Positions 31,326 through 54,199 of a stretch of 64,000 bases of DNA are shown piece by piece. Origin of the DNA: Pelosinus propionicus DSM 13327 (lineage in GTDB: Bacteria; Bacillota; Negativicutes; DSM-13327). Position 1 is the first letter of the stretch; the number at the start of each line of letters is the position of its first letter. The stretch is taken from NCBI RefSeq assembly GCF_900114615.1, contig NZ_FOTS01000013.1, positions 62,001 to 126,000 of the forward strand. The letters are read 5' to 3'. The position numbers and the translations under genes are program-made. Under the pieces are notes generated by a model. It had not been told where the DNA came from. It worked only from the letters and a program-made list of their open reading frames with translations, and did not search any database.

Positions 31326-31447
31326 TTTTTTATAGGCTCTCACCAAAGTTATGATGATTACATATATTATAATACATATTTGGCAACACCTTATTGCTAG
31401 ATGCAAAGTTTGCTGGTCATCAATTAAGTACAAAGGAGTTGATATTT

Positions 31448-32296
31448 GTGATTTTGGCTAATGGTGAGCCTATGCACTCGTTCGATATACAGCAGCTTAA
31501 ATGGGCTCTACGTAGAGGGCAAATGGATATCTGGGAAAGTACTCCCGCCGAGAGTCAGCCCGCTGCCGATGTAGAGACTGTTAGTAGTACTGGAGAAAAT
31601 CCTCCTGTATGTACAACCGTTTTAGATCAGATTACTGCTATGGAGAAAATGATGAATCAGCAAATTGCCTTATTCAGAAATGAATTTGCTGTTTTTATTC
31701 AAGCACAAGTCAATCAAGAAAAAGCACTGCGTCTTTCTGAGACAGAGTGGCAAAAAAGGCTTGTAGAGCATGAAAGTAAAATGTTAGCCGAGATGTGGGA
31801 GATGCGCCAAAGTATAATCGGGGAATTTACTACGTATTTTCAATTGATTGCAGAGCAGCTGCAGAATCGAGATCACTTAATACATAAGGAAATATCTTTG
31901 CTTAAAGAACAATTAAATGAGATGCACCAGTATCAGGAGTATCATAAAGAACAGGATTTAGCTTTAGCTAAGGAATGGAATGAAAAGATTGAACAATGCC
32001 AAATACAGCTGATAAATTGCATGCAGCACATACAAACCGTACTCGAAGAAATAAATACAAACGGCATTAGCAATCAGAAACAAGAAGATTTTTTCCTTAA
32101 AGAAATTGCAATTGTAAAAGATGAAGTAGAGCATTTACAAAAAGTATATCAGATAAAAGAAGTAAGACCTATGGTATTAGAGGCTGAGCCTTGTGAAGGT
32201 AATTTATTGGAAGCAAATCAAATCGATATGCTGCAGATAGTAGAGTTTAAAGAAGATATGAATAGAAAGAAAAAACGAAGACAGCGGAGAGGATAA
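31448..32296 (+). CDS. Coiled-coil protein, function unknown, first gene of glycan island
   Basis: 282 aa from GTG 31448 (AAGGAG at 31433-31438, 9 bases upstream). Not recognised. Residues about 1-30 form a compact segment (GEPMHSFDIQQLKWALRRGQ), followed by an acidic/Pro linker and a long Gln/Glu-rich helical region (about 60-250) with heptad-like spacing. The end is strongly basic (RKKKRRQRR). No signal peptide or membrane segment. It is the first gene of the glycan block, 6 bases before gmd, so a scaffold or regulator of the pathway is conceivable. Confidence 0.7.
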   Translation: MILANGEPMHSFDIQQLKWALRRGQMDIWESTPAESQPAADVETVSSTGENPPVCTTVLDQITAMEKMMNQQIALFRNEFAVFIQAQVNQEKALRLSETEWQKRLVEHESKMLAEMWEMRQSIIGEFTTYFQLIAEQLQNRDHLIHKEISLLKEQLNEMHQYQEYHKEQDLALAKEWNEKIEQCQIQLINCMQHIQTVLEEINTNGISNQKQEDFFLKEIAIVKDEVEHLQKVYQIKEVRPMVLEAEPCEGNLLEANQIDMLQIVEFKEDMNRKKKRRQRRG

Positions 32297-32302
32297 GATG
32301 TG

Positions 32303-33400
32303 ATGGAGAAAGTTGCATTGATTACAGGAATAACAGGTCAAGATGGTGCCTATCTGGCTGAATTTCTACTAAAGAAAGGCTATATTGTTCATGGTATAAA
32401 AAGGCGTAGCTCTTTAATTAATACGGCACGAATTAATCATCTCTATCAGGATTTTCACGAACAACAAGTTAAATTCTTTTTGCACCACGGTGATATGACA
32501 GATGCTACAAATTTAATTCGGATTATACAGGAAGTACAGCCCGATGAAATATATAATTTAGCAGCACAAAGTCATGTGCAGGTCTCATTTGATACGCCGG
32601 AATATACTGCAAATGCAGATGCCTTAGGAACCTTAAGATTATTAGAAGCATTACGCATATTAAACATGACGGACAAAGTTAAGTTTTATCAAGCGGCTAC
32701 TAGTGAATTGTTTGGAAAAGTTCAAGAAACCCCTCAGAAAGAAACGACTCCTTTTTATCCCCGTAGTCCTTATGCTGCAGCTAAATTATATGCTTATTGG
32801 ATTGTTGTTAATTATCGAGAAGCGTATAACATGTTTGCTTGTAATGGAATTTTATTTAATCATGAATCACCAATCCGTGGTGAGACGTTTGTTACTCGCA
32901 AAATTACGAGAGCGGTAGCCCATCATAAACTGGGAGTAGGCAATATTTTATATTTAGGAAACTTAGATGCAAAAAGAGATTGGGGATTTGCTGGTGATTA
33001 TGTAAAGGCTATGTGGCTTATGCTGCAGCAAGAAAAACCGGAGGATTATATCATTGCTACAGGCGAAACCCATTCTGTACGTGAATTTGTAGAATTAGCT
33101 TTTCATAATATTGGAACAAGTATTGAGTGGCAAGGAACAGGAGTTGCAGAAAAGGGGATCAATCGTGCTACCGGTCAAACTATAATCGAAGTAGATGCAC
33201 GCTATTTTCGGCCAACAGAGGTGGATCTTCTGCTTGGTGATGCGACAAAAGCAAGAGAAAAGCTCAAATGGCAGCCGGAAGTTAGCTTAAATGAAATGGT
33301 CGAACAAATGGTATGTCAGGATATTAAACTGGTTGAACGTGAATTATTATGTACAGAGCATGGATATAGTGCCGAAAGTATACGGAGTGGTAAAGGGTAG
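32303..33400 (+). CDS. gmd: GDP-mannose 4,6-dehydratase
   Basis: 365-aa SDR enzyme making GDP-4-keto-6-deoxy-mannose. Nucleotide motif [15 protein letters not shown], catalytic Thr in [11 protein letters not shown], YxxxK as [10 protein letters not shown], and [16 protein letters not shown], a GMD hallmark. GTG 32300 is an alternative start one codon earlier. The fucose synthase gene follows. Confidence 0.95.
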
Positions 33401-33439
33401 AAAAGGGGTTCCGTAGGATATCAATGATGGAGGCGGATT

Positions 33440-34381
33440 ATGGATCAGCATGCCAAAGTGTATATCGCTGGACATCGAGGGTTAGTAGGTTCTGCTATTT
33501 TGCGTAAACTGACCCGCGATTTTGATACCGAAATTATATGTCGTACCAGGCAAGAGTTAGATTTGTGTAATCAGGCTGAAGTCATGAAATTCTTTGCAGA
33601 AAAAAAGCCTGAATATGTATTTCTGGCAGCTGCAAAGGTAGGAGGAATACTTGAGAACCAAACCTATCCTGCTAAATTTATATATGAAAATGTTATGATG
33701 CAATCAAACCTAATTCATGCTGCCTACAAGTACAATGTGAAGAAATTACTGTTTTTAGGAAGCTCTTGTATTTATCCTAAATTAGCCCTTCAGCCAATAA
33801 AAGAAGAGTATTTGTTGACTGGTGAATTAGAGCCTACAAATGCTGCTTATGCAGTTGCTAAAATTACGGGGATACAGATGTGTCAAGCGTATAATAGCCA
33901 ATATGGGACAAAATTTATATCGATCATGCCGACCAATTTATATGGCCCTAATGATAATTTTGATTTAACATCATCTCATGTTCTGCCTGCTCTGATACGA
34001 AAATTTCATGAAGCAAAAATCAATCATTTGCCAAATGTTGAAATATGGGGTACTGGCAAGCCACGGCGGGAATTTTTGCATGTAGATGATCTGGCGGATG
34101 CCTGCTTATTTCTAATGGATATCTATGAAGGTAATCAACCAATCAATGTTGGAGTTGGCAAAGATATTTCGATACAAGAACTAGCTGCATTGGTTGGAGG
34201 AGTTATAGGATATTCAGGAGAGATTCTCTATAACTGCGCCATGCCGGATGGAACCCCTCGTAAATTACTGGATATAGCGAAGATCACAGACCTTGGCTGG
34301 CAGTCAAAAATAAAATTAGAAGATGGTATAGCCAATACCTATCAATGGTATCTGAACAGCCTAGCGAACCACAGAACCTAG
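33440..34381 (+). CDS. fcl: GDP-L-fucose synthase
   Basis: 313-aa epimerase/reductase (WcaG family) that turns the gmd product into GDP-L-fucose. YIAGHRGLVGSAILR is the NADP-binding start; GSSCIYPK and YAVAKITGIQMCQAYN hold the Ser/Tyr/Lys triad. AGGAGG-like site (GGAGGCGG) upstream. With gmd and the GT11 enzyme at 43423 it defines a fucosylation branch. Confidence 0.95.
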   Translation: MDQHAKVYIAGHRGLVGSAILRKLTRDFDTEIICRTRQELDLCNQAEVMKFFAEKKPEYVFLAAAKVGGILENQTYPAKFIYENVMMQSNLIHAAYKYNVKKLLFLGSSCIYPKLALQPIKEEYLLTGELEPTNAAYAVAKITGIQMCQAYNSQYGTKFISIMPTNLYGPNDNFDLTSSHVLPALIRKFHEAKINHLPNVEIWGTGKPRREFLHVDDLADACLFLMDIYEGNQPINVGVGKDISIQELAALVGGVIGYSGEILYNCAMPDGTPRKLLDIAKITDLGWQSKIKLEDGIANTYQWYLNSLANHRT

Positions 34382-34550: not shown

Positions 34551-35423
34551 ATGTCGATTCCAATTGTTTTTATACATTATGGTGATAGTGATTACTTGCA
34601 GTATAGTCTACTGCAGGCAAAACGATCCAATAAAAATAAGGATATTATATTAATTGGTGATGAAAGTAATAATAAATATCCTTTTGTTAAACATTTTAAT
34701 GTGAGCGAAAGCAGCTCCATGAAGCAGTTTGCGAAAGTATATCAGCATATGAATTTTAATTCCCACGACTATGAATTGTTCTGTATACAAAGGTGGTTTA
34801 TATTACGGGATTTTATGATCTCCCATAACGTCGAGCAATGCTATTATCAGGATTCAGATGTTATGCTATATGAAGATATTGAAAAAGAAGATGTTGCAGG
34901 CTATGATTTTGGATTTTGCGGAAGTATCTCTGCGGGGATTTCTTATATTAATAATGTAGCAGCGTTAGATGCTTTTTGCGCATTTATTACCAGTTGCTAT
35001 ACGCAAGATGAGCTAAGACGGCAGCTTGAAAATATGTATCAGTCCATCATAGCCACGATCCCTCATGGGGGTATCTGTGACATGGTGTTTGTGAATTTAT
35101 ACTGCAATAACACCGATCCGGAAAAAATATATGATTTATCAATAATTCGTGATGGTGCTGTATTTGACCTGAATGTAAATCTGATTGATGAATATGAAGA
35201 ATGGCATGGGCGGAAAAAGATCTATTACACAAATAAAGGGGTTTTGTGTAAAAACCTAGCCCTTAATCAATTTATTCGGTTTAAAGCTCTTCATTTTCAG
35301 GGAGCAGCCAAAAGTTTCATGAGGTACTTTTTAGAAAAATCTTTTGAAGAATGTACGAATCCGCTAGTATTTGACTATTCTACTTGTCAATGGCAAGAAA
35401 TAAGTGATTTATATTTCAATTAA
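34551..35423 (+). CDS. Putative glycosyltransferase, family not recognised
   Basis: 290 aa. The opening IVFIHYGDSDYLQYSLLQAK and a central CYYQDSDVMLYEDI look like a GT-A fold with a DxD motif (QDSDV) for a nucleotide sugar. No membrane segment. CAAGGGAGG precedes the ATG. It lies between the GDP-fucose genes and the AMP-ligase gene, consistent with a cytoplasmic sugar transferase; the donor is unknown. Confidence 0.6.
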   Translation: MSIPIVFIHYGDSDYLQYSLLQAKRSNKNKDIILIGDESNNKYPFVKHFNVSESSSMKQFAKVYQHMNFNSHDYELFCIQRWFILRDFMISHNVEQCYYQDSDVMLYEDIEKEDVAGYDFGFCGSISAGISYINNVAALDAFCAFITSCYTQDELRRQLENMYQSIIATIPHGGICDMVFVNLYCNNTDPEKIYDLSIIRDGAVFDLNVNLIDEYEEWHGRKKIYYTNKGVLCKNLALNQFIRFKALHFQGAAKSFMRYFLEKSFEECTNPLVFDYSTCQWQEISDLYFN

Positions 35424-35484
35424 TCGCTATGGCGAGTAGTGGAGTGCAACGATTTTCATACGGCAAAGAGAGGTGCTTAAGATA

Positions 35485-38310
35485 GTGAATTCAGAAGTAA
35501 CACTTTTATATGATGATGAAAAGCAAGCAGGAAATATAAAAATTATAGTAAAGAATATTCCTGATATTACGATTGTAGATGAAAATAAAAGTGAAACCGT
35601 TAATTTTTCGGAATGTGGAAAACAAATCAGATGGCTGAGTACTAAAATATCACAAGATTTTCCGAATGAAAAGTACATTGGCCTGATCTTTAAAACATCA
35701 AGAGAATTGATTTTACACTGGCTTGCAGTGCTGGATGCTGGCAAGGAACCATTGATTATTCAATATCCAACTAAAAAGCAAAGTCTAATTTACTGGCATA
35801 ATTCAATTAGTCATACGATTTCTTCTGCGAACATTCAAGGAGTCATATGCGAAGAAGTTATTCGATCTTTAGAAATTGAAAAAAGAGTAAAGACCATTTT
35901 TTTTGATGGTCGGATTTTAGAAGCAGATACTAGCTGTGATGAAATTATCAATGGTGCCTTTATTCAACTCTCATCAGGAACCACTGGTATGAGAAAAGGC
36001 ATGAGATTTACTTTTCAACAACTTTATCAGTATATTCAGAGTTACAATCACATCATGGAAATGAAGAAAAGCGATTGTATTGTCTCTTGGCTGCCTTTAT
36101 ATCACGATATGGGATTTATTGCATGTTTCAGCATGCCTATTTTTTTAGGAATTAAGCTGGTTTTAATTGATCCGATTGTTTGGGTTAGTAATCGGTCCAT
36201 TCTATTTAAGACCATTGCCCATTATGGAGGTACACTTTGCTTTATGCCTAACTTCGGCTTTGAGGTCATGGCAAAAGAGCCGATAGCTGCTCCTATGACA
36301 ACAATGCGACGCTGGGTTTCAGGAGGAGAGCCTGTTAAGAAAGAAACAATGGTTCGATTTTCTCAGCATACCAATACAAAATTAGAATCTATATCTGTCG
36401 TTTACGGCTTTGCGGAAACAATTATGGCAATATCGCAAAGCAATGGTATTAAGACATATGTAAAAGAGGGCAGAGAAGTTACAAGCTGTGGAAGGATTAT
36501 TCCAGGAACGCTTGTTAAAATCATTGGCAATGAAGTGTACGCCAAAAGCGGTTATTCGATACATGCGTATTTGGATCAGATTCCAATAGTTGACAGCGAA
36601 GGATATATCCCTACTGGCGATATTGGATTTATTGAAGGCAACGAACTATTCATTGAAGGACGTAAACATGATGTCATGATTCAAGCAGGGCAAAAGTTTA
36701 TGTTAAATGAAATGGATACGATATTAGCTCATGTTGTTCCGGAATGGGAAGGACGTGGTGTATGTTTAGCAAAAGATGACGCGAGAACGGGTACACAAAC
36801 CCTTCTTATTTTATTAGAGAGAGAGGATATAACCGATACACGGCAATATAAAGAGCTGGCAAATCGCTTAAGCCACGCATTGCCAATGGGCAATTTTGAA
36901 TTTTATTTCGTGCCAGAAGAATTTGTTACAAAAACTTCATCAGGCAAGATCAACCGCAAGAAAACCTTGGAAGATTATATAAAGTATCAAAACTGGCAAG
37001 AGCGAGATAGAAAGAATGGTATGATTGCGGATATTAAATATGAAATCATGCGGTATTTTCATGGTTCATCCTTTGATACTCCTATTTCAAATACATTAGA
37101 TTCTTTGGGGATTATTATTTTAAACTCGATAGCCCAAGAACAGCATATCAGCATCTCAGGAGATATGAGCTTGCAGGATGTTATTCGAGCATGCAGTGAA
37201 AAAAATAAAGAAAACAATGGAAATATAAAAAAGGAAGTTATTTCTATTGTTTCTATTATGGATTATTCTGTGGTCGGAAAATTCACACCTCAAGATATGG
37301 AACGGATTGAAAGAGAAGTTGGAATGCCGGTAGAATTTGAACATGTTTGTATGCCGCCAGCACCGATTATTTATCAGGATTTAATATTTTATGATTATTT
37401 TATGTGTCGTGATTTTGATGAGCGTTATTCCTATTATTTGAATTGTGTACAAAAAATAAAAGAAGCCAGCGTATTGCTTTTAGACGATCATGGAGAATTT
37501 GCAGTTGGCGGTGCAGGTGCTTTTCCTGTTATGAGCAAAAAATTCAGCCGAAACCCATTAAGCGATTACGTGGTGTATCGGTGGCAGAAATATTCAAGAA
37601 ATCACCAATTGCTCCCAGTTGGGAATGTTGTTCACGGTCTTAGCCTTTCAGCAGAAATGCATTTAAAAGCAATACAACAAATCTCTTCTCACTTAGGAGT
37701 TCCGATTTTTCGAGCAGCAGTGTGTCAAAACTATCGCCATCTTACTAGTGACTGGGAATACAAAGACTATAAATATAGTTTTCAAATCATTCATGACAAA
37801 GTTCCGAATTATTCCAATCATGAGCAGCTGGTTACATCCTTATGTGAGTTTATAAAAAAACATAAGGATCATTTAAAGCGTAAGACAGTAAGCAGTGTAA
37901 ATCGAATTTTAGATTATAGTGATTTGTGGCACTTTTGCTCCTATTGTGTGAATCCTATCTTTTTAGATCAAGTAATCGATTCTTTTCAGAGCTTTATCAT
38001 TCATGGGCTGCCTGGAAGTTTGTATTACCTGCAGAAAAAGTTAGGTGAAAAAGGCAAAAAATACTGCTTTGTTCCTGCCTTAAATCCTAATGGCGGATTT
38101 GATCCTGGTTTAGAAACATCTTATGAATGCGTCTTGCAAACTGGCAGTTGGGGAGCGCCTAACACTAGACTGCCTGTTATTTCCTTAATGGCAGCAGGTG
38201 GCCCATTAGTAGCAAATTTACCAGCTAACTTTATCGTTGATCCAAATGTATTGGGAAATTCCTTCATTGCAATGCCAGAAGCCATAGCTGCATATTTAAA
38301 GAGATCTTAA
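35485..38310 (+). CDS. AMP-ligase / acyl-carrier domain / unknown C-terminal domain protein
   Basis: About 941 aa (GTG 35485 after AGAGAGG; GTG 35473 also possible). An acyl-AMP ligase (about 80-510) carries the P-loop QLSSGTTGMRKGM, YGFAET, GDIGF and the C-terminal lysine motif SSGKINRKK. An ACP/PCP-like domain (about 515-590) follows with TLDSLGII, Ser540 being the likely phosphopantetheine site. Residues about 600-941 are an unrecognised domain rich in His, Tyr and Trp. It may activate an acyl or amino acid and pass it to a sugar or other acceptor. It is encoded in a glycan island, so a glycan acylation role is inferred. Confidence 0.75.
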   Translation: MNSEVTLLYDDEKQAGNIKIIVKNIPDITIVDENKSETVNFSECGKQIRWLSTKISQDFPNEKYIGLIFKTSRELILHWLAVLDAGKEPLIIQYPTKKQSLIYWHNSISHTISSANIQGVICEEVIRSLEIEKRVKTIFFDGRILEADTSCDEIINGAFIQLSSGTTGMRKGMRFTFQQLYQYIQSYNHIMEMKKSDCIVSWLPLYHDMGFIACFSMPIFLGIKLVLIDPIVWVSNRSILFKTIAHYGGTLCFMPNFGFEVMAKEPIAAPMTTMRRWVSGGEPVKKETMVRFSQHTNTKLESISVVYGFAETIMAISQSNGIKTYVKEGREVTSCGRIIPGTLVKIIGNEVYAKSGYSIHAYLDQIPIVDSEGYIPTGDIGFIEGNELFIEGRKHDVMIQAGQKFMLNEMDTILAHVVPEWEGRGVCLAKDDARTGTQTLLILLEREDITDTRQYKELANRLSHALPMGNFEFYFVPEEFVTKTSSGKINRKKTLEDYIKYQNWQERDRKNGMIADIKYEIMRYFHGSSFDTPISNTLDSLGIIILNSIAQEQHISISGDMSLQDVIRACSEKNKENNGNIKKEVISIVSIMDYSVVGKFTPQDMERIEREVGMPVEFEHVCMPPAPIIYQDLIFYDYFMCRDFDERYSYYLNCVQKIKEASVLLLDDHGEFAVGGAGAFPVMSKKFSRNPLSDYVVYRWQKYSRNHQLLPVGNVVHGLSLSAEMHLKAIQQISSHLGVPIFRAAVCQNYRHLTSDWEYKDYKYSFQIIHDKVPNYSNHEQLVTSLCEFIKKHKDHLKRKTVSSVNRILDYSDLWHFCSYCVNPIFLDQVIDSFQSFIIHGLPGSLYYLQKKLGEKGKKYCFVPALNPNGGFDPGLETSYECVLQTGSWGAPNTRLPVISLMAAGGPLVANLPANFIVDPNVLGNSFIAMPEAIAAYLKRS

Positions 38311-38354
38311 TATAGAAGAATCCCCGCCTTAACAGCGGGGATTCTTCTATATTA
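38308..38354. terminator. Shared palindrome between convergent genes
   Basis: Perfect 20-bp arms (38308-38327, 38335-38354) around a 7-base loop, with a GC-rich core. The ends of the palindrome are the TAA stop codons of the two convergent genes. No U-run on either side, so termination strength is uncertain. Confidence 0.65.
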
Positions 38355-39323
38355 AGACTTAAAAAGATTGAGATCTTGAAGTACCATTTCTTTAACGATT
38401 TCTTCTAACCTAATTTTAGGACGCCATCCTAAGTCCTGGTAGATTTTAGAGGCATCTCCGAGTAAAGGGACTTGTTCGCTGGGGCGAAAAAAATTACTGT
38501 TGATCTCTAAATAGTTCGTATAATCAAGCCCTACAAATGAAAAGGCAATTGCTAATAAGTCACGGACAGTATGGGGAATACCAGTGGCAATAATATAATC
38601 TTTGGCTCCCAAAGGGTTATTAAGCATCATCCACATCGCTTCTACATATTCGGGAGCATAGCCCCAATCCCGAATCGCATCGACATTTCCTAATTGAATG
38701 TGGTTTTCCAGTTTTAATAGTATTTTAGCAGCTGCAGATGTAATTTTTCTTGAAACAAAGGCTGGATTACGACGTGGGGATTCATGGTTATAACAATAAC
38801 CTGTGCAGGCGTATAAGCCGTGATGCTCTCGATAATTCTTTACGACATAGTGGCTGGCTAATTTTGATATTCCATAGATCGAGCGAGGATTGAAGCGAGT
38901 ACCTTCTGTTTGAGGTGATAGTTCAGCATTACCAAAAAGTTCACTAGAACCAGCAAAGTAAAATCGGCATTGAGGCACCAATTCTTTTATGCTAGAAAGA
39001 AAATAATGTGTTGGATTTAAATTCGTAGCAAGAATGGAAGCTTCATCTTCGAAAGAATAACTTACAAAGCTAGCGGCTGCAAGATGATAGCATTCGTCAG
39101 GTTTTACAGCATCGATTAATTTATAGATGGATAAATGATTATTCAATGAACAGATGTGCAAGGTAATCCGATCAGAAATATCTTTCAGAAAAAAAAGCTT
39201 TTGATGGTTTTCCATACTGGATTGCCGGATCACACCGTGAACTTGGTAACCTTTTGCTAGTAAGAGTTCTGCTAAATAGGAACCATCCTGTCCGCTAATA
39301 CCTGTAATAAGGGCTTTCTTCAT
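38352..39323 (-). CDS. Second GDP-mannose 4,6-dehydratase-like NDP-sugar dehydratase
   Basis: 323 aa, from ATG at 39323 (site GGTGGG 8 bases upstream; ATG 39329 also possible). SDR with GISGQDGSYLAELLLAKG, YGISKLASHYVVKNYREHHG and NHESPRRNPAFVSRKI. It is clearly GMD-like but divergent from and shorter than the gmd at 32303. It could act on another NDP-hexose or supply a different GDP-deoxysugar. Transcribed with the downstream part of the opposite-strand pair 39340-41292. Confidence 0.82.
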   Translation of the reverse strand: MKKALITGISGQDGSYLAELLLAKGYQVHGVIRQSSMENHQKLFFLKDISDRITLHICSLNNHLSIYKLIDAVKPDECYHLAAASFVSYSFEDEASILATNLNPTHYFLSSIKELVPQCRFYFAGSSELFGNAELSPQTEGTRFNPRSIYGISKLASHYVVKNYREHHGLYACTGYCYNHESPRRNPAFVSRKITSAAAKILLKLENHIQLGNVDAIRDWGYAPEYVEAMWMMLNNPLGAKDYIIATGIPHTVRDLLAIAFSFVGLDYTNYLEINSNFFRPSEQVPLLGDASKIYQDLGWRPKIRLEEIVKEMVLQDLNLFKS

Positions 39324-39339
39324 AACCATCCCACCAATA

Positions 39340-41292
39340 TTAATTCATTCTATATTCAATGCTAGTTGAAGTTTTCTCAATTAGATCAAGGATATAATTA
39401 TTCAAATAACCAAGATAAATTTCATTTGCTTGCGGCGGTAAAGAAAAATGTTTCATCATTTCTAATGCGAGAGATTTCCAAGAAGCAATCGAATAGTTGC
39501 TAGGATGTATAATATGATAACAAATAGGAGTTGTTACTTTTTTTACTGACAGTTTAGCCAATAACGGAATTAAGGGCATCCAGTAATCCCACCATGGCAA
39601 GCCAATACAGAATTTTGCAGGGGGATATTGCTGAATAAAACTTCGGTCAAAGAAGAAATAGTCAAATCCTTTATAAAAAATGCCATTGCTAATTTTATCA
39701 AAAGATTCGACATCAAGGCGCGGGCCAAAAACCAGTGAGTCTGTTGCTTCTATATTCATGAATGCAGGAAGATCTTTTTTGAAAAAATGAATATCGGAGT
39801 TGACGATACCGCATATCCGATTCTCCCTTGCAGCAAAATACGCTAAAATATCATCGATATAGATATAAGGTTTACCATAGGTCTCTCTGGCATCTCTTTT
39901 AGCTGCAACAAATTCAATATTAGGGAAATAAGGTTGGATTGTATTTATTTCAGCCTGAGAGTTTATCGATACCACATTGAAACCAGAATGCATCCAGCTT
40001 TCGATTGCTTTTTTTTGTGTGGAAATATCTTTACCTGGTGCCAGAGAAGTAGCAATGGTTATTTTATCATGATGAAATGAGCTATGAGAGAACGTGGTGT
40101 TTTGTACCGGAGAACGATAGATTTCTCTAGCTGCCATGATGAACTGACAAAATTGCCAATTAAAATTAGTAATTTTCGCATTATATTCTAATTTAGATTC
40201 GTTTTCCTTTAAAAGATCAGGTCCAGGGTTCGTTGTTGGCAGTAATAATGATATTTTATTTGCTAAATCCTCTGCATCTGTTCTTGCAAAGTAGGTGCCA
40301 TAACCTTCTTCTTCATGTATGGGCAGATCGGATAAAATAATGTCTTTTCCTAATAATTGGCATTCTTGTATAATCAGACTCAAGCCCTCGAATAAGGAAG
40401 GCTGCACTACGAATAAACTGCGGCGCATAAGTTGCATTTGATCATGACGGGGAATCAGGCCAAGAATATGAATATGCTCTTTGAGATTAAGAACCTGAAT
40501 GTACTCCTGTAATTTATTAAAATAATTAGGGTTGCGATAATCGGTTGTTGATCCGGTGCATACTAGGTGAATTTCTTGACCTCTACTTTGCAAAATAGCT
40601 AACGCTTTAAATAAGACGGGATGATTTTTATGCATCCAGAATTGATTGGAGCATAATATAAATCGATCAGGTATTTTATATTTTGCTTGGATTTGATAAG
40701 GATCGCCTGTATACCATTCCTTTTTTGGATGAACAGGAAATGGTAATACCAGGGGAGTGGCGGGCGAGGATGGATATAGTTGCAAAAAATCTTTTTTTGC
40801 ATCATTGCTGGTGAACAATACCACAGGAGAGTTGTCGGCAATTTTTTGAAATAAAGTATTCCGTTTTGTAATTTCAGTAGCCGAAAAAAGTTGAGGCAGA
40901 TAATGATGCTGAAAGTCTGGTATCCATGGTATTGCAGGATAGCCAGGATACAATTCTGAGTTTATTGGTAGCATTAAATCAATATTATGGAAGAGGTGGT
41001 CTGTAGAGACATAATGGATAATTGGATGGTTAATTAAGTCTTTTGCTGTATCTATATTTGTACCTACATAAATTAAACCGTCGATTAATGGAAAAAGATG
41101 CTCATGGAGAGGGATTAAATCATACAAAGTCAAACATTCTAAATTTTCATCATTCATCACGAGAAAAAGTTGTGGGCGATTCTCTTCAGATAGCTGCGCA
41201 ACAGAGCTAATAATTGATTCTACTACCGTAACACCTGCATACCAGTATTTGCTTCCTATCATAGGTAGGCCTATGCGTATATTTTTAAGCAT
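39340..41292 (-). CDS. GT4-type glycosyltransferase fused to a C-terminal NSD-motif domain
   Basis: 650 aa. Residues 1-about 380 are a GT-B fold transferase: FILCSNQFWMHKNHPVLFKAL and PSLFEGLSLIIQE (donor-binding ExxxxxxxE type). From about residue 409 a second domain starts ITIATSLAPGKD and contains CGIVNSDIHFFK, a possible DxD-like site. That domain occurs alone in the protein at 47831. Two linked transferase activities are likely. It is co-directional with, and 16 bases upstream of, the second dehydratase. Confidence 0.8.
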   Translation of the reverse strand: MLKNIRIGLPMIGSKYWYAGVTVVESIISSVAQLSEENRPQLFLVMNDENLECLTLYDLIPLHEHLFPLIDGLIYVGTNIDTAKDLINHPIIHYVSTDHLFHNIDLMLPINSELYPGYPAIPWIPDFQHHYLPQLFSATEITKRNTLFQKIADNSPVVLFTSNDAKKDFLQLYPSSPATPLVLPFPVHPKKEWYTGDPYQIQAKYKIPDRFILCSNQFWMHKNHPVLFKALAILQSRGQEIHLVCTGSTTDYRNPNYFNKLQEYIQVLNLKEHIHILGLIPRHDQMQLMRRSLFVVQPSLFEGLSLIIQECQLLGKDIILSDLPIHEEEGYGTYFARTDAEDLANKISLLLPTTNPGPDLLKENESKLEYNAKITNFNWQFCQFIMAAREIYRSPVQNTTFSHSSFHHDKITIATSLAPGKDISTQKKAIESWMHSGFNVVSINSQAEINTIQPYFPNIEFVAAKRDARETYGKPYIYIDDILAYFAARENRICGIVNSDIHFFKKDLPAFMNIEATDSLVFGPRLDVESFDKISNGIFYKGFDYFFFDRSFIQQYPPAKFCIGLPWWDYWMPLIPLLAKLSVKKVTTPICYHIIHPSNYSIASWKSLALEMMKHFSLPPQANEIYLGYLNNYILDLIEKTSTSIEYRMN

Positions 41293-41763: not shown

Positions 41764-42438
41764 GTGAAGAAGATGTGCATTGTAAATTTTGCTACTGAGA
41801 CCGGTTGGTATAAGGGTGGTCAAATTCGGCTTTTGGAAAGTTTACATGCAGTTGGATATAAGGGGGACGTATTAACTTGGATTGGGGAAGAATCGTTAAA
41901 ATGCCCCTCTCATCAGCAAGTGCCATATGGATTCAAGACATACGCATTAGCAGAAGCATATTTTAAAGGGTATGAATTAGCCTTATTGCTTGATTGTTCC
42001 ATGGTAGCCATACAGCCGTTAGATAAAATTTTTAATCATATTGAAGAACATGGTCATTTTATACAGGATAGTGGGTATGATGTAGGTCAGTGGTGCTCTG
42101 ATGCGGCTTTAGGGACTCTTCAGATCACTAGGGAAGAGGCATTTTCTATTCGATGCTGCTCAGCAGGCTGTACGGGTTTAAATTTTAAAAACACTCGGTC
42201 AGTAGACTTTTTAAAGCAATGGCATGAAAAAGCGAATGATAATATTACGTTTATAGGTGCCTGGGATAATAAAGATGGGCAAGTTTCTACAGATAGCAGA
42301 GTACTAGGACATCGTCATGACCAGACAGCAGCTTCTGTACTTGCGCATAAACTAAATATGAAGATAATGCCTAGAGATTATTATTTTTCATACTATACTC
42401 CCCGCCATGAATCAATATGTATATTATGTTTGAGGTAG
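41764..42438 (+). CDS. Putative small glycosyltransferase-like protein
   Basis: 224 aa. ALLLDCSMVAIQPLDKIFNHI is typical of GT-A-like transferases in which the DxD position reads DCS. Late segments (VLAHKLNMKIMP) also fit. The C terminus ends shortly after YYFSYYTPRHES and may be shortened. GTG start after GGAGGGG. Donor and acceptor unknown. Confidence 0.6.
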   Translation: MKKMCIVNFATETGWYKGGQIRLLESLHAVGYKGDVLTWIGEESLKCPSHQQVPYGFKTYALAEAYFKGYELALLLDCSMVAIQPLDKIFNHIEEHGHFIQDSGYDVGQWCSDAALGTLQITREEAFSIRCCSAGCTGLNFKNTRSVDFLKQWHEKANDNITFIGAWDNKDGQVSTDSRVLGHRHDQTAASVLAHKLNMKIMPRDYYFSYYTPRHESICILCLR

Positions 42439-47795: not shown

Positions 47796-47830
47796 CCTAG
47801 AGTTATTCAATGAAAGACGGGAGGAAGGGT

Positions 47831-48661
47831 ATGAGTCAGCCTATTACGATTGCTACATCCTTAGCGCCAGGAAAAGATGTAAAGATTCAAAAAGAGGCAG
47901 TTAACAGTTGGCATAGACTGGGGTTTGTTGTAATATCTATCAATTGTGCAGAGGAAATAGCTGTTTTAAAATCATCTTTTCCAGAAATTGAATTTATTGA
48001 AGTTGCCAGAGATGCTAGACAACAATTTGGCAAGCCCTATATTTATTTTGACGACATATTAGCTTGTTTGTGGGAACGAGAATCTTCTTTATGTGGAATT
48101 GTTAATTCTGATATTTGCTTCTTGAAGCATGAGTTTTATTCTTTCCTGACGAAGGAGGGGCGTGATTCATTTATTTACGGATCTCGAATTGATATAAGTA
48201 CATTTAATCATGTTAATGGCAGAGTAATTCAAGATGGTTTTGACTATTTCTTTTTTGATCGAAAAGTGATTGCTGCATATCCTGCCTCGCAATTTTGTAT
48301 TGGTATGCCATGTTGGGATTATTGGGCGGTGCTATCTCCTTTATTCTTAGGAGTAGCCGTTAAGAAAGTCATGACAGCTCATGCATATCATATAATACAT
48401 AAAGTGAATTGGAACAATACAATTTCAAGCAGATTATTTCATGAACTGTTGCATCATATCAAACCGCTTTCGGCTGTTGCTGCTTCTGCCAACTATATGT
48501 TGAGTTTTATAGATCGTTATTCTCTAAAATTGAATTTGCAAAGCGAGGGAGGAAGCAGAAAACAACTGCAGAATTTGCTTCCTCAAATCAAAAAGGTACT
48601 TACAAAGGGAGATATTCAAGGGGAAATTATTGATGAACTATTATTTCTAAGAAGAAAGTAA
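47831..48661 (+). CDS. Stand-alone NSD-motif domain protein, paralogue of the 39340-41292 C-terminal domain
   Basis: 276 aa from ATG 47831 (GGGAGGAAG upstream). The same signatures as the fused domain occur in the same order: ITIATSLAPGKD, GIVNSDICF, QFCIGMPCWDYW, AYHIIHKVN. A putative glycosyltransferase; the family is not recognised. No signal or membrane segment. Confidence 0.75.
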   Translation: MSQPITIATSLAPGKDVKIQKEAVNSWHRLGFVVISINCAEEIAVLKSSFPEIEFIEVARDARQQFGKPYIYFDDILACLWERESSLCGIVNSDICFLKHEFYSFLTKEGRDSFIYGSRIDISTFNHVNGRVIQDGFDYFFFDRKVIAAYPASQFCIGMPCWDYWAVLSPLFLGVAVKKVMTAHAYHIIHKVNWNNTISSRLFHELLHHIKPLSAVAASANYMLSFIDRYSLKLNLQSEGGSRKQLQNLLPQIKKVLTKGDIQGEIIDELLFLRRK

Positions 48662-48727
48662 TATCATTTTTTACCAGCTCGAAGAATAAATTAAATTAGG
48701 TTGGAATAAGACAATGAGGTGGTTGGT

Positions 48728-49651
48728 ATGAAGGATTATATATGTACTACTCCCATAGCATTGATTATCTTTAATAGGCCAAATCTAACGCAGCAGGTGT
48801 TGGCAGAGATCCGCAAGGTTAGACCTGTGAAGTTACTAGTCATTGCAGATGCTCCTAGGACAGATCAAAGGGATGATATAGAAAAATGTGCTTTAGTACG
48901 GAATCTTATTGATGGGATTGATTGGGAGTGTGAGATTATAAAAAATTACTCTCCCGTTCATTTAGGCTGTGGCAAGCGTCCCGCTACTGGAATGGATTGG
49001 GTTTTTAGTTTGGTAGAAGAAGCAATCATATTAGAAGATGATTGTTTGCCACATCCGACATTCTTTCCGTATTGCCAGGAATTATTAAAAAAGTACTCTG
49101 ATGACCAACGTATTATGAGTATTTCGGGTAATAATTTTCAGTTTGGCAGACGACGAACAGCGGATAGTTATTATTTTTCCCGCTATACCCAGACCTGTGG
49201 TTGGGCAACCTGGAAAAGAGCATGGCGGCATTATGATTTTGACATGAAGCTCTGGCCTGAAGTTCGCGATGGGAAATGGTTATTTGATATCTTTGGTAGT
49301 ATGCAAGTGGCAAATCGCAGTGATCAGCCCCAATTTGAAGTGATTGGGGGAGTGCGAGTTGCCCAATATTGGCAGCGTGTCTTTGAGGCTGCCTATCAGA
49401 AAAAAATAGATGCTTGGGATTTTCAGTTTGCATTTTCCTGTTTTTTACAAAGTGGTTTGCATATCTTGCCGAATACGAATTTAGTATCCAATATTGGATA
49501 TGGCCCTGAAGGAACTCATACGAAAGATAAAGGAAGCTGCCTTGCTAATCTGCCAGTAGAAGAGATGGAATTTCCCTTAAAGCATCCGCGCTTTATCATT
49601 CGTGATGCCTGGGCAGATACTTTTTTACAGGCAAATAACTTTTCCTGCTGA
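48728..49651 (+). CDS. GT-A-type glycosyltransferase, HlpA-like
   Basis: 307 aa. PIALIIFNRPNLTQQVLAEI, a nucleotide-diphospho-sugar transferase start, then AIILEDDCLPHPTFFPY with the acidic metal site, and CGWATWKRAWRHYD. The nearest known type is the HlpA family of putative transferases. ATG 48728 after ATGAGGTGG. The donor is unknown. Confidence 0.8.
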   Translation: MKDYICTTPIALIIFNRPNLTQQVLAEIRKVRPVKLLVIADAPRTDQRDDIEKCALVRNLIDGIDWECEIIKNYSPVHLGCGKRPATGMDWVFSLVEEAIILEDDCLPHPTFFPYCQELLKKYSDDQRIMSISGNNFQFGRRRTADSYYFSRYTQTCGWATWKRAWRHYDFDMKLWPEVRDGKWLFDIFGSMQVANRSDQPQFEVIGGVRVAQYWQRVFEAAYQKKIDAWDFQFAFSCFLQSGLHILPNTNLVSNIGYGPEGTHTKDKGSCLANLPVEEMEFPLKHPRFIIRDAWADTFLQANNFSC

Positions 49652-49676
49652 TTGTTTGTATAGGGGGAGGAAAATA

Positions 49677-52600
49677 ATGAAGGTAGTACATATTAACCTT
49701 TTTGATAAACATGGAGGGGCAGCAAGAATTTCCTGGACTCTTGTGAACAACCTTAGCCAACGAGGGCATGAGGCTGTTACTTTTGCTCACCACACAGTAT
49801 CTTCTCAAGATGACCGAGTGATTCAGATTCCCTTTTTAAAAACTAGATGGCAAAAAGAACTGTTAGAACAGCAGCAGCAGCAAGGTTTATTTGATCTTTA
49901 TTCTGCAGCCTTGCTAAGGGTATTAAATCATCCTTTGTTTGAACAGGCTGATTTGGTTCATTTACATTGTATTAATGGAAATTATTTTTCTTTTTTGTTA
50001 TTGCCCTTTTTGGCATCTAAGCCTTTAGTCTGGACATTGCATGATCCTCTTGCCTTTACTGCCAAGTGCCTGTCTACGGATGTTTGTAATGGCTGGAAAG
50101 AAGATTGGTGTGCAGTATGTCCCCAAGATATTGAAAATAAAAACAAATTGCAGCGTGAGTTGGTACAGCTTATTAAAAGTTTAATGTATAAAGTATCTAA
50201 TTTTACCGTAGTATGCCCTTCTGCATGGTTAGGCAGGCAAGCAAAAGAAAGCCTGCTGCAAGAGAAAGAAATTCGCCTGATTTATAATGGTGTTGACATA
50301 AGTACATTTCAACCTGGCAGCAAAGAGGAATTGCGGTTTAAATTAGGTTTGCCGGCTTCTCAAAAAATAATCTTATTTGCAGCTCATGGTGGTTTGAATA
50401 ACCCCTATAAGGGAGGGGAGTTCTTACGCGAAGCATTATTAGAAATCTATAAACGGTATCCCGATATTGTTTTACTTACGATAGGGTCATACAGTACATC
50501 GACATTAGAAGACTTTCCGATCCGTCACATCGATGTTCCTTTTATTGATGACCACAAGCAGTTGGCACAGTATTATGCAGCTGTTGATCTTTATGTTTCT
50601 CCTACCCTAGCCGAGGTGTTTGGCCTTACTATTTGTGAAGCGATGGCATCAGGTACGCCAGTTGTTGCCTTTGCTGTAGGAGGAATCCCGGAGCTGATAA
50701 CTCATAAAGAAAATGGTTATTTGGCGGAACGGGGAAATGTAGGTGAATTGATTCAAGGCATTCTTTATTTCCTGGAAAATGAAGAGCTTAGACAATGTTC
50801 TGGTAGAGCTGCTCGACTCCGAGTAGTAGAAAAATTTAGCGAGAAGCGTATGGTAGATGAGTATGTAGCCTTATATGAAGAAGTATTGAAAAAAAGTAAG
50901 TCCATTAAAAGTGATACGAGTTCAAATTCTGATGATGAGGAGATCGCTCAACTAGTAGAAAGAGAAAAAAGTAAAGGATGGAGCTTTGTATGGAAAGCAT
51001 TTCATCATAAATATTCTCATTTTAAAATGGAAGAAAGCAGGGAAAAATTGCAGTTTGTAGATCGGTTTTGTGGCCACTGCCTCAAAAAAATCAATCCTCT
51101 TTTGGAAAGTCATGCGTTGTGGGATGTGATTACTTTGTGGCAAAGTTGTAGATCCATACCAGACAGCAGCAATCATTTACAGGATAAAGAAATGCAAGCT
51201 TTTTATGAATTTATTAAGACGCTGCGCAAATGTTTAACGATTTACTTCAGTAAAGTACCTCAAGGCAGATACGTTCAGCTCAAGGAGGATCAGCACCAAA
51301 AGCTTTACATGCTTTGGCAGCAAATCTTTTTAAATGACTTCTTATCGCTGCCAATAGAAGAAAATGAGAGCTTTGCATTTACGGATTCATCTGCGAGTTT
51401 TAAAGAATTCCTTTTAATCAGTATGTATCGGCCAATGGATGCGGAACAATTTAACATTAATGTTGTTCAATTATGGAAGGAAGAAGAAATTCCTGAATAT
51501 TATAAGGTGTTGATTACTTTTTGGCTGCTGCATGTCCCTTATTACAATATTGAAGGGAAACATCGAGATAAAGTTTTAAAATATGCTTCTGATCTATTTT
51601 CAGCGCATATCCCAACAAGTTCGTTTATTCCTTTGGTAAATGAGTGTACTAAAGTTCTTTGGCGTATTTCTTATAGTGGTGGTAATAATCTGCCTGCGTT
51701 GGCTCGATTTGGTGATTTTATTGCTGCTCATATGGAGCAGTATGTGTCTCGAAATAAAAAGTTAACTGCCAGTTTTAAGAAAAATAGAAAAAAGAAAAAA
51801 ATACGCATCGGCTATATTTCACGATTTTTTTACGGGCAGGCTGTTAGCTACTATATGGTAAATCGTGTGATTCATCATAATAAAGATAATTTTGAAGTAT
51901 ATACATTTGCTTTGGGAAGAGGTTATGATGAAATCACCAGTCTTTTTGAAAAATATAGTGACCGTTTTAAACAATTTAAACAGATAGATGCGATTGAAGA
52001 TGTATATTGTATCATGCAAAGTATCATAGATAGTAAGCTTGATATTTTAATTTATACAGATATAGGTATGGATCCTTTGACGTATATGCTGGCTGGGCTC
52101 CGATTAGTACCGATTCAGTGTGCATTAGTAGGCCATGGAACAACCACTGGTCTGCCGACGATTGATTATTATATCAGCGGTGATTTTGAACCGTCAGATG
52201 CTAGTTCTCATTACCGAGAGAAATTAGTAAAATTGCCGAACCTGGGAGCTGCGCAATTTCCCCCTCCTTTTACATCGTTTATCCCTGTCACTCGTAAAGA
52301 TTGGAAAATACCTGAAGAGGCTGTAGTTTTTGTTTCTTGTGCAAATGGTATTAAGCATAGTCCGTCGCGGGATCGGTTGTTAGTGGAAATCTTAAAGCGT
52401 GTTCCTAATGCCTGTATACTGCTCAAACCATGTCATTCAACGAATCTAGATAATCAGCTAGGAGAGCGGATCAAGCAGGCTGCCAGAAGTGCTGGAGTTG
52501 AAAGACAGTTGTTTATTGTACCTCCCTTAGGACGGGTTGATGCTTTGCTGGCAATTGCTGATATTCAATTAGACACATATCCTTACGGAGGCTGGACTAC

Positions 52601-52892
52601 ATCTCTGGAGGGATTTTATATGGGCTTGCCGATGGTCACCCAGGAGGGAGATATGGCTAGAAGCAGATGGGGGGCTCATATGCTTCGTGCTCTTGGGATA
52701 CAAGATGGCATAGGAAAGAATGAAGAAGAATATGTGGAGTGGGCCGTGAAATTAGCACAGAATAAAGAACTTAGAGAGCAGATAAAGAAAAAAATAACAG
52801 AGCAGGTAAAAGAGGTTTTGTTTAATGGCTCAGCAGCACAGCCCCACTATGAAAGTGCTTTACTAAAAATTTTTAAAAATCAATTCAAATAA
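49677..52892 (+). CDS. Bifunctional GT4 - GT41 (OGT-like) glycosyltransferase
   Basis: 1071 aa. An N-terminal GT4 enzyme (about 1-415: VHINLFDKHGGAARIS, SPTLAEVFGLTICEAMASG) is followed by an unrecognised helical middle (about 430-700) and a C-terminal GT41 catalytic region (about 705-1070) with IRIGYISRFF, ILIYTDIGMDP, VGHGTTTGLPTIDYY and DTYPYGGWTTSLEGFYMGLP. GT41 enzymes (O-GlcNAc transferase, SPINDLY, HMW1C) glycosylate proteins. The pair suggests successive sugar additions. No TPR repeats are obvious. Confidence 0.88.
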   Translation: MKVVHINLFDKHGGAARISWTLVNNLSQRGHEAVTFAHHTVSSQDDRVIQIPFLKTRWQKELLEQQQQQGLFDLYSAALLRVLNHPLFEQADLVHLHCINGNYFSFLLLPFLASKPLVWTLHDPLAFTAKCLSTDVCNGWKEDWCAVCPQDIENKNKLQRELVQLIKSLMYKVSNFTVVCPSAWLGRQAKESLLQEKEIRLIYNGVDISTFQPGSKEELRFKLGLPASQKIILFAAHGGLNNPYKGGEFLREALLEIYKRYPDIVLLTIGSYSTSTLEDFPIRHIDVPFIDDHKQLAQYYAAVDLYVSPTLAEVFGLTICEAMASGTPVVAFAVGGIPELITHKENGYLAERGNVGELIQGILYFLENEELRQCSGRAARLRVVEKFSEKRMVDEYVALYEEVLKKSKSIKSDTSSNSDDEEIAQLVEREKSKGWSFVWKAFHHKYSHFKMEESREKLQFVDRFCGHCLKKINPLLESHALWDVITLWQSCRSIPDSSNHLQDKEMQAFYEFIKTLRKCLTIYFSKVPQGRYVQLKEDQHQKLYMLWQQIFLNDFLSLPIEENESFAFTDSSASFKEFLLISMYRPMDAEQFNINVVQLWKEEEIPEYYKVLITFWLLHVPYYNIEGKHRDKVLKYASDLFSAHIPTSSFIPLVNECTKVLWRISYSGGNNLPALARFGDFIAAHMEQYVSRNKKLTASFKKNRKKKKIRIGYISRFFYGQAVSYYMVNRVIHHNKDNFEVYTFALGRGYDEITSLFEKYSDRFKQFKQIDAIEDVYCIMQSIIDSKLDILIYTDIGMDPLTYMLAGLRLVPIQCALVGHGTTTGLPTIDYYISGDFEPSDASSHYREKLVKLPNLGAAQFPPPFTSFIPVTRKDWKIPEEAVVFVSCANGIKHSPSRDRLLVEILKRVPNACILLKPCHSTNLDNQLGERIKQAARSAGVERQLFIVPPLGRVDALLAIADIQLDTYPYGGWTTSLEGFYMGLPMVTQEGDMARSRWGAHMLRALGIQDGIGKNEEEYVEWAVKLAQNKELREQIKKKITEQVKEVLFNGSAAQPHYESALLKIFKNQFK

Positions 52893-53440: not shown

Positions 53441-54199
53441 TTAGCTTGGAGGACAAATATCTGTACAAGGGCCAATTTGATGAGTGCTGTCGAAAGAGCC
53501 TTTTACAGTAAAAGAAGAGAAGCCATTAGCGATTGCTGCATCAGTTAATTCAAATGGACGAATTCCTTCTACCCACAAGTTCTCGCTTCTCCATAATTTA
53601 TCTATAATTTTTCCTGTAATTGTAATTTGTTGAGGACTGGTGACAACCGCATTAAATTGGGCGACAAGGCAGGAACCGTCAATTCTTGTCAGTTCATTCT
53701 TTAATTGCTGCCCAGTTACAGGGGTGCAATCTGGGAATCGGTAGAAAGTAGTAAAGGTTCTAGTAAAGGTTGGGAGCGGAAGAATGATTGGGTTTGAAGT
53801 GCAATTGCCGCAGATGATTACCAAACCAATTCTAACCGTTACCGTTTGACATCCTTCATCGATTTGTTCATCGGCGCACCATAGGATAACCTGGCAAGTC
53901 TCTCCTACGGTGAGTGTTGGGAAAGTAAAGGTTCCATTGCATTGAACACGGCATGGTCCTACTGGAGGGTAGGCTATGCATCTTGTAAATTCACCGGAAT
54001 TACCGATAAGTACGACTTCTTCTACACAAATGTCATGACATTCACATGTTGGTATTCTGCTTACTGGGGGAGTTGTAGTACCAAAAACAGGTCCGCAGTT
54101 GTTAAAGATACTAAGACAGCTATTGCATGGGCAATTTGGTTCACATTGGCGGGTCAATTCACAAAAATCAGGAATCTCAAAATACTTGCTGTCTATCAT
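53441..54199 (-). CDS. Cysteine-rich protein, possible spore-surface component
   Basis: 252 aa on the minus strand, from ATG 54199 after AGAGGAGG. Not recognised. The N-terminal third has several Cys pairs (TRQCEPNCPCNSC, PTCECHDIC, CRVQCNG), and the middle is Thr/Val-rich beta-like. No signal peptide. The pattern recalls cysteine-rich coat or exosporium proteins of spore formers. It borders the glycan island and the host carries sporulation genes, so a surface role is suggested but not shown. Confidence 0.55.
   Translation of the reverse strand: MIDSKYFEIPDFCELTRQCEPNCPCNSCLSIFNNCGPVFGTTTPPVSRIPTCECHDICVEEVVLIGNSGEFTRCIAYPPVGPCRVQCNGTFTFPTLTVGETCQVILWCADEQIDEGCQTVTVRIGLVIICGNCTSNPIILPLPTFTRTFTTFYRFPDCTPVTGQQLKNELTRIDGSCLVAQFNAVVTSPQQITITGKIIDKLWRSENLWVEGIRPFELTDAAIANGFSSFTVKGSFDSTHQIGPCTDICPPS

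Follow-up and report, generated by a model that had tools for sequence, protein, structure and literature searches.

What reaction is catalyzed by a protein that joins an adenylating ligase and a carrier-like segment to a long C-terminal part resembling no known family, and why is it encoded among sugar-nucleotide genes? The question is raised by a gene at 35485..38310 (+ strand, 941 aa) of the 64,000-nucleotide stretch analyzed here (the window), which is contained in the 5.4 Mb genome of Pelosinus propionicus DSM 13327. An earlier reading of this DNA, made without database searches (the sequence-only reading), proposed that the third part might be a transferase and that the enzyme might acylate or aminoacylate a surface sugar. 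That interpretation is partly supported by our analysis: the conserved three-part enzyme is real and hitherto undescribed, activation and carriage of an acid are well supported, and the third step is most likely the transfer of this acid to a glycan.

Gene structure and distribution

The frame is open without interruption up to 38310, with a GTG start at 35485 that is to be preferred to another GTG upstream, at 35473, because it aligns with the ATG start of the Pelosinus fermentans JBW45 homologue (MKSAVAIQYDDEE versus VNSEVTLLYDDEK in that alignment). Counted from this start, the serine of the LDSLG motif in the carrier segment is residue 540 (codon 37102-37104). Comparison with four Pelosinus homologues by the Nei-Gojobori method gave dN/dS values of 0.05-0.39 in the carrier segment and of 0.04-0.16 in the other three parts (ligase, SGNH-like and C-terminal), apart from saturation in one comparison of the C-terminal part; strong purifying selection acts on the whole chain.

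The sequence-only reading had suggested a search for homologues of the C-terminal domain and their neighbors, and this search yielded nine fusions, each encoded close to glycan enzymes or to modifying enzymes of another kind. The domain is present in seven of the eight Pelosinus genomes, in one additional genome of the Negativicutes (G020, E 5e-98) and in the alphaproteobacterium Propylenella binzhouense (32% identity). It was not detected in the remainder of the sample, which comprised 300 class, 398 phylum and 385 alphaproteobacterial-class genomes. In all nine homologues the ligase comes first, the carrier second and the C-terminal domain last, and the C-terminal domain never occurs separately in the searched genomes. 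A tblastn search of the C-terminal region against phages and plasmids produced no match, and two scans of viral contigs revealed no relative. The G020 homologue carries about 330 additional C-terminal residues (L030, 9970-10966) that look repeat-like by eye and have no Pfam match. One other match (G305, E 4e-4) was taken as chance, the frame resembling a spore-germination-type protein.

The ligase and carrier domains

The assignment of an adenylating ligase to this chain in the sequence-only reading is borne out by a match to the Pfam AMP-binding family (PF00501; 101.6 bits against a cut-off of 29.9, E 5.3e-29, residues 31-354), within an acyl-AMP ligase domain that spans 35563..36972 (+) and resembles fatty acyl-AMP ligases (FAALs). 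The motifs SSGTTG (35971), YGFAE (36403), TGD (36613), GRKHD and TSSGK (36934), all on the + strand, are invariant or nearly so across the aligned homologues; the AMP-binding core motifs, together with the C-terminal catalytic lysine (in TSSGK), place the domain among the class I adenylate-forming (ANL) enzymes. Among the NCBIfam and PDB matches, FAALs and FAAL domains within larger synthases predominate, the top matches in the PDB profile search being 7r7g, 3kxw, 7r7f, 7r7e and 3pbk, and the scores fall far under the NCBIfam FAAL cut-offs. The ligase carries the motif PLYHDMG, not an aspartate-bearing A4 motif; the former is typical of acyl-activating ligases and the latter of amino acid A-domains. 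Given that FAALs predominate among the nearest families and PDB chains and that PLYHDMG is present, the ligase is less likely to activate an amino acid than a fatty acid or some other carboxylic acid.

Judged by its sequence, the ligase is nearest to FAALs yet lacks their insertion motif. The stretch from YGxAE to SCG, where this motif is located (36403..36507, +), comprises 35 residues as against 55 in a related FAAL (locus L045), that is, it is 20 residues shorter, and the profile alignment with 7r7g shows a long gap at the same site. The insertion, between subdomains B and C, is specific to FAALs (PMC4667280), and work on FadD28 cited in that paper suggested that it blocks the thioester step. 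The missing insertion would therefore fit a ligase that is free to rotate into the thioester-forming state and loads its own carrier.

The carrier-like segment (36988..37200, +) showed no match to HMMs including Pfam PP-binding. Nevertheless, Ser540 is invariant in a five-way alignment, where only the F, P, L, D and S columns are invariant, as well as in seven Pelosinus rows, and in the AlphaFold2 (AF2) model, which shows a helical bundle here (block pLDDT about 78-84), it lies where helix II begins. Thus, the phosphopantetheine site that had been read in LDSLG stands at the position given for it, its loss having been named beforehand as fatal to the idea, and the segment is probably a divergent short carrier domain, judging by its DSL serine and predicted structure. 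The genome encodes phosphopantetheinyl transferase-family genes.

The C-terminal domain

The lack of a recognizable fold in the third part holds for about 350 residues: searches of residues about 585-941 against Pfam, NCBIfam and PDB sequences, even at E-values up to 10, returned chance-level matches only. No condensation, ketosynthase or thioesterase domain was recognized in the chain by these searches, and hence the match to a condensation or thioesterase family that would have undone the sequence-only reading did not materialize. The same result bears on another possibility, namely a small loading or one-module enzyme of the NRPS/PKS type whose product would be a diffusible lipid or peptide with no connection to the sugars. 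FAAL-carrier pairs usually start PKS/NRPS lines, and further AMP-binding domains occur in a 2429-aa frame elsewhere on this contig; however, with none of the above domains in the chain and with a glycan context that recurs across unrelated gene orders, we consider this explanation quite improbable.

Structure prediction and fold search, the other check proposed at the outset, provided a lead rather than a fold. Confidence is low in both AF2 models of the C-terminal domain (pLDDT 58.6 and 59.9, pTM 0.50 and 0.61), the underlying alignments being shallow (6 rows, with homologues found only by genome searches left out). The model shows two beta-alpha units. We divide the region into a domain without a family name that is tentatively SGNH-like alpha/beta (37234..37983, +) and, from the second model, a C-terminal beta-alpha subdomain (37984..38307, +); the FIIHGxPxS and ECxLQTG motifs of the latter are conserved in Pelosinus and less so in distant homologues. 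Foldseek searches against PDB and viral models found nothing at E < 0.001. In the VIA-align search with the second model, SGNH (GDSL) hydrolases or O-acyltransferases account for 18 of the 50 listed rows, including ranks 1, 3, 4, 5, 8 and 9, with the O-acyltransferase PatB among those listed; the best SGNH match has a Z of 7.2 (8ik1, 155 residues, 4.6 Å), in a range (Z < 8) where a match may reflect merely a common arrangement. The list obtained with the first model contains two or three SGNH rows. The SGNH idea preceded the second fold search and came from these rows, from the strand order and from two invariant features, a serine that follows strand 1 and the sequence D-x-x-H-F.

The candidate residues of the SGNH-like domain are Ser590 (37252), Asp813 (37921) and His816 (37930), all on the + strand; Ser590 and the Asp813-x-x-His816 motif are invariant in three alignments (A1, A3 and A6). 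SGNH enzymes are defined by Ser in block I, Asn in block III and Asp-x-x-His in block V, and the block III position here is Asp (Asn in L029). The SGNH superpositions stop near model residue 212, short of model Asp230/His233 (the equivalents of Asp813/His816), which counts against the triad as drawn. The Pfam GSCFA family (PF08885) did not match, and hhalign comparison with GSCFA gave a P-value of 0.46, at the low power afforded by four sequences; nor did hhalign, with few sequences per profile, find anything against a 355-aa protein encoded beside an MBOAT gene in another genome (see below). Given that every Z is below 8, that flavodoxin-like folds tie with SGNH and that the superpositions end before D-x-x-H, an SGNH fold is a lead, not a finding.

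Accommodating the two beta-alpha units of the model, the third domain could alternatively be some other two-part alpha/beta enzyme, glycosyltransferase-like or reductase-like, that converts the carrier-bound group before release. GT-B glycosyltransferases do appear in the weak Foldseek lists, and FMN reductases, like TIR domains, are at most 1 Z unit away from SGNH in VIA-align; but the Foldseek matches all lie above E 0.001, mostly with TM-scores < 0.3, and we noticed no nucleotide-binding glycine motif in the conserved columns, which makes this option rather unlikely.

Genomic context

The sugar-island setting noted in the sequence-only reading is evident from the neighborhood. The island extends from about 31.4 to 53 kb, is flanked by proBA and a MacB-type exporter, and has a slightly lower G+C content (36-38% over most of it as against mostly 38-41% in the flanks). 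Upstream of the gene are those for GDP-mannose 4,6-dehydratase (Gmd) and GDP-L-fucose synthase (32300..34381, +; TIGR01472, 612.7 bits, over the cut-off, and NF047922, 493.8 bits, just under the cut-off of 500, respectively), followed by a 290-aa, probably glycosyltransferase-like protein without a significant family match (34551..35423, +). Downstream are a convergent pair encoding a Gmd-like paralogue and a 650-aa glycosyltransferase (38352..41292, -), UDP-glucose dehydrogenase and a UDP-xylose-synthase-like epimerase. The island also encodes glycosyltransferases of GT2, GT4 and GT11 (fucosyltransferase), and no flippase or polymerase was recognized among the proteins scanned.

Several other features of the island deserve mention. 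The Gmd-like paralogue (38352-39329) scores 329 bits against the gmd cut-off of 415 and may make a different GDP-sugar; a 1096-aa protein (49602-52892) combines a glycosyltransferase of GT4 and a part of the OGT/SPINDLY type (GT41); the products of 31394-32296, 41764-42438, 47810-48661 and 48719-49651 have no significant Pfam match, are in several cases conserved across Pelosinus and are probable divergent glycosyltransferases; and a cysteine-rich 252-aa protein (53441-54199), also without a Pfam match, has counterparts of about 92-93% identity at two other Pelosinus loci.

Gene order is fixed in the syntenic Pelosinus loci, where the gene is accompanied by that for the adjoining 290-aa upstream protein and by the convergent pair for the Gmd-like protein and the glycosyltransferase. 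Elsewhere the surroundings differ. One homologue (G006) forms a one-gene unit flanked by oppositely oriented genes, which implies that no adjacent partner is needed. The G020 homologue follows NeuB, cytidylyltransferase and WbqC, with a PIG-L deacetylase directly downstream, an arrangement compatible with acetyl removal followed by re-acylation. Near the Propylenella homologue are a sulfotransferase-like protein (by eye, no Pfam match), an FkbM methyltransferase and two frames of the GSCFA type; none of its neighbors is a clear sugar-synthesis enzyme. The obligate fusion in nine of nine homologues and the one-gene unit support action of the third part on a carrier-bound group; that this action is transfer, as the sequence-only reading had it, is plausible.

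The carrier-bound group might instead be hydrolyzed, with the C-terminal domain acting as a hydrolase or an editing/release enzyme and another enzyme performing the transfer to sugar. The SGNH neighbors in VIA-align are mostly esterases or thioesterases, such as TesA, and a related FAAL elsewhere adjoins a separate MBOAT acyltransferase. Spending ATP merely to release an acid would be futile, though, and Pfam recognized no separate acyltransferase among the window proteins scanned around the gene, several of which have no family; we regard this scenario as improbable.

Proposed mechanism and comparison with known systems

The reading that we prefer, with chances that we put at about even, is that of a single-chain enzyme for acyl activation, carriage and transfer that decorates a surface or protein-linked glycan, its third part being an SGNH-like acyltransferase. 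In the first, well-supported step, the FAAL-like ligase would adenylate a carboxylic acid with ATP. The acyl group would then be loaded onto the phosphopantetheine arm that Ser540 of this chain bears, a step supported by the conserved serine and the predicted helical fold. Finally, we infer that the C-terminal domain, probably an SGNH-like alpha/beta acyltransferase, takes the acyl group off the carrier and attaches it to a hydroxyl or amine, the acceptor being a sugar nucleotide or glycan that the neighboring genes produce. Somewhat short of even are the chances that these proteins constitute a new family of carrier-dependent glycan acyltransferases with their own ligase and carrier in one soluble chain. 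If so, neither CoA nor a membrane MBOAT partner would be needed to attach to a sugar any acid that the ligase accepts. Known glycan acylation systems mostly divide activation, carriage and transfer among several proteins, and a membrane enzyme is often one of them. A single chain that includes an undescribed transfer domain would lend itself readily to assays and could widen the chemistry of sugar decoration. The C-terminal domain marks a family missing from the Pfam and NCBIfam copies searched, and our literature search found no paper linking FAAL, SGNH and glycosylation.

With FAALs (PDB 7r7g and 3kxw, FadD32), the protein has in common the adenylation motifs, the best profile and PDB matches and a partner carrier domain; it differs in the lack of the insertion motif and in a fused C-terminal domain unlike the PKS/NRPS partners. 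A related FAAL occurs in a polysaccharide setting in another member of the Negativicutes (G015; L046, 7161-17756), where frames for the FAAL and, following it, an MBOAT acyltransferase, the 355-aa protein without a family and PgaA/PgaC/PgaB-like proteins may make up an acylation cassette that is fed by the FAAL and linked to a poly-GlcNAc operon; there, however, the FAAL is stand-alone, its insertion-site stretch is longer, and the membrane MBOAT is the likely transferase. SGNH-type glycan O-acyltransferases such as PatB transfer acyl groups to sugars and may have the same fold as residues 585-835, but the fold match is weak, the sequences are not detectably related, and the domain described here would be fed by an internal carrier. 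The Aeromonas group II flagellin glycosylation islands, which contain ACP and AMP-dependent synthetase genes (PMC7874193), likewise place acyl activation and carrier genes within a glycan island; in those islands the functions reside in separate genes, accompanied by LuxE/LuxC and a reductase, and the likeness to the three-part chain of Pelosinus drawn here is one of gene content.
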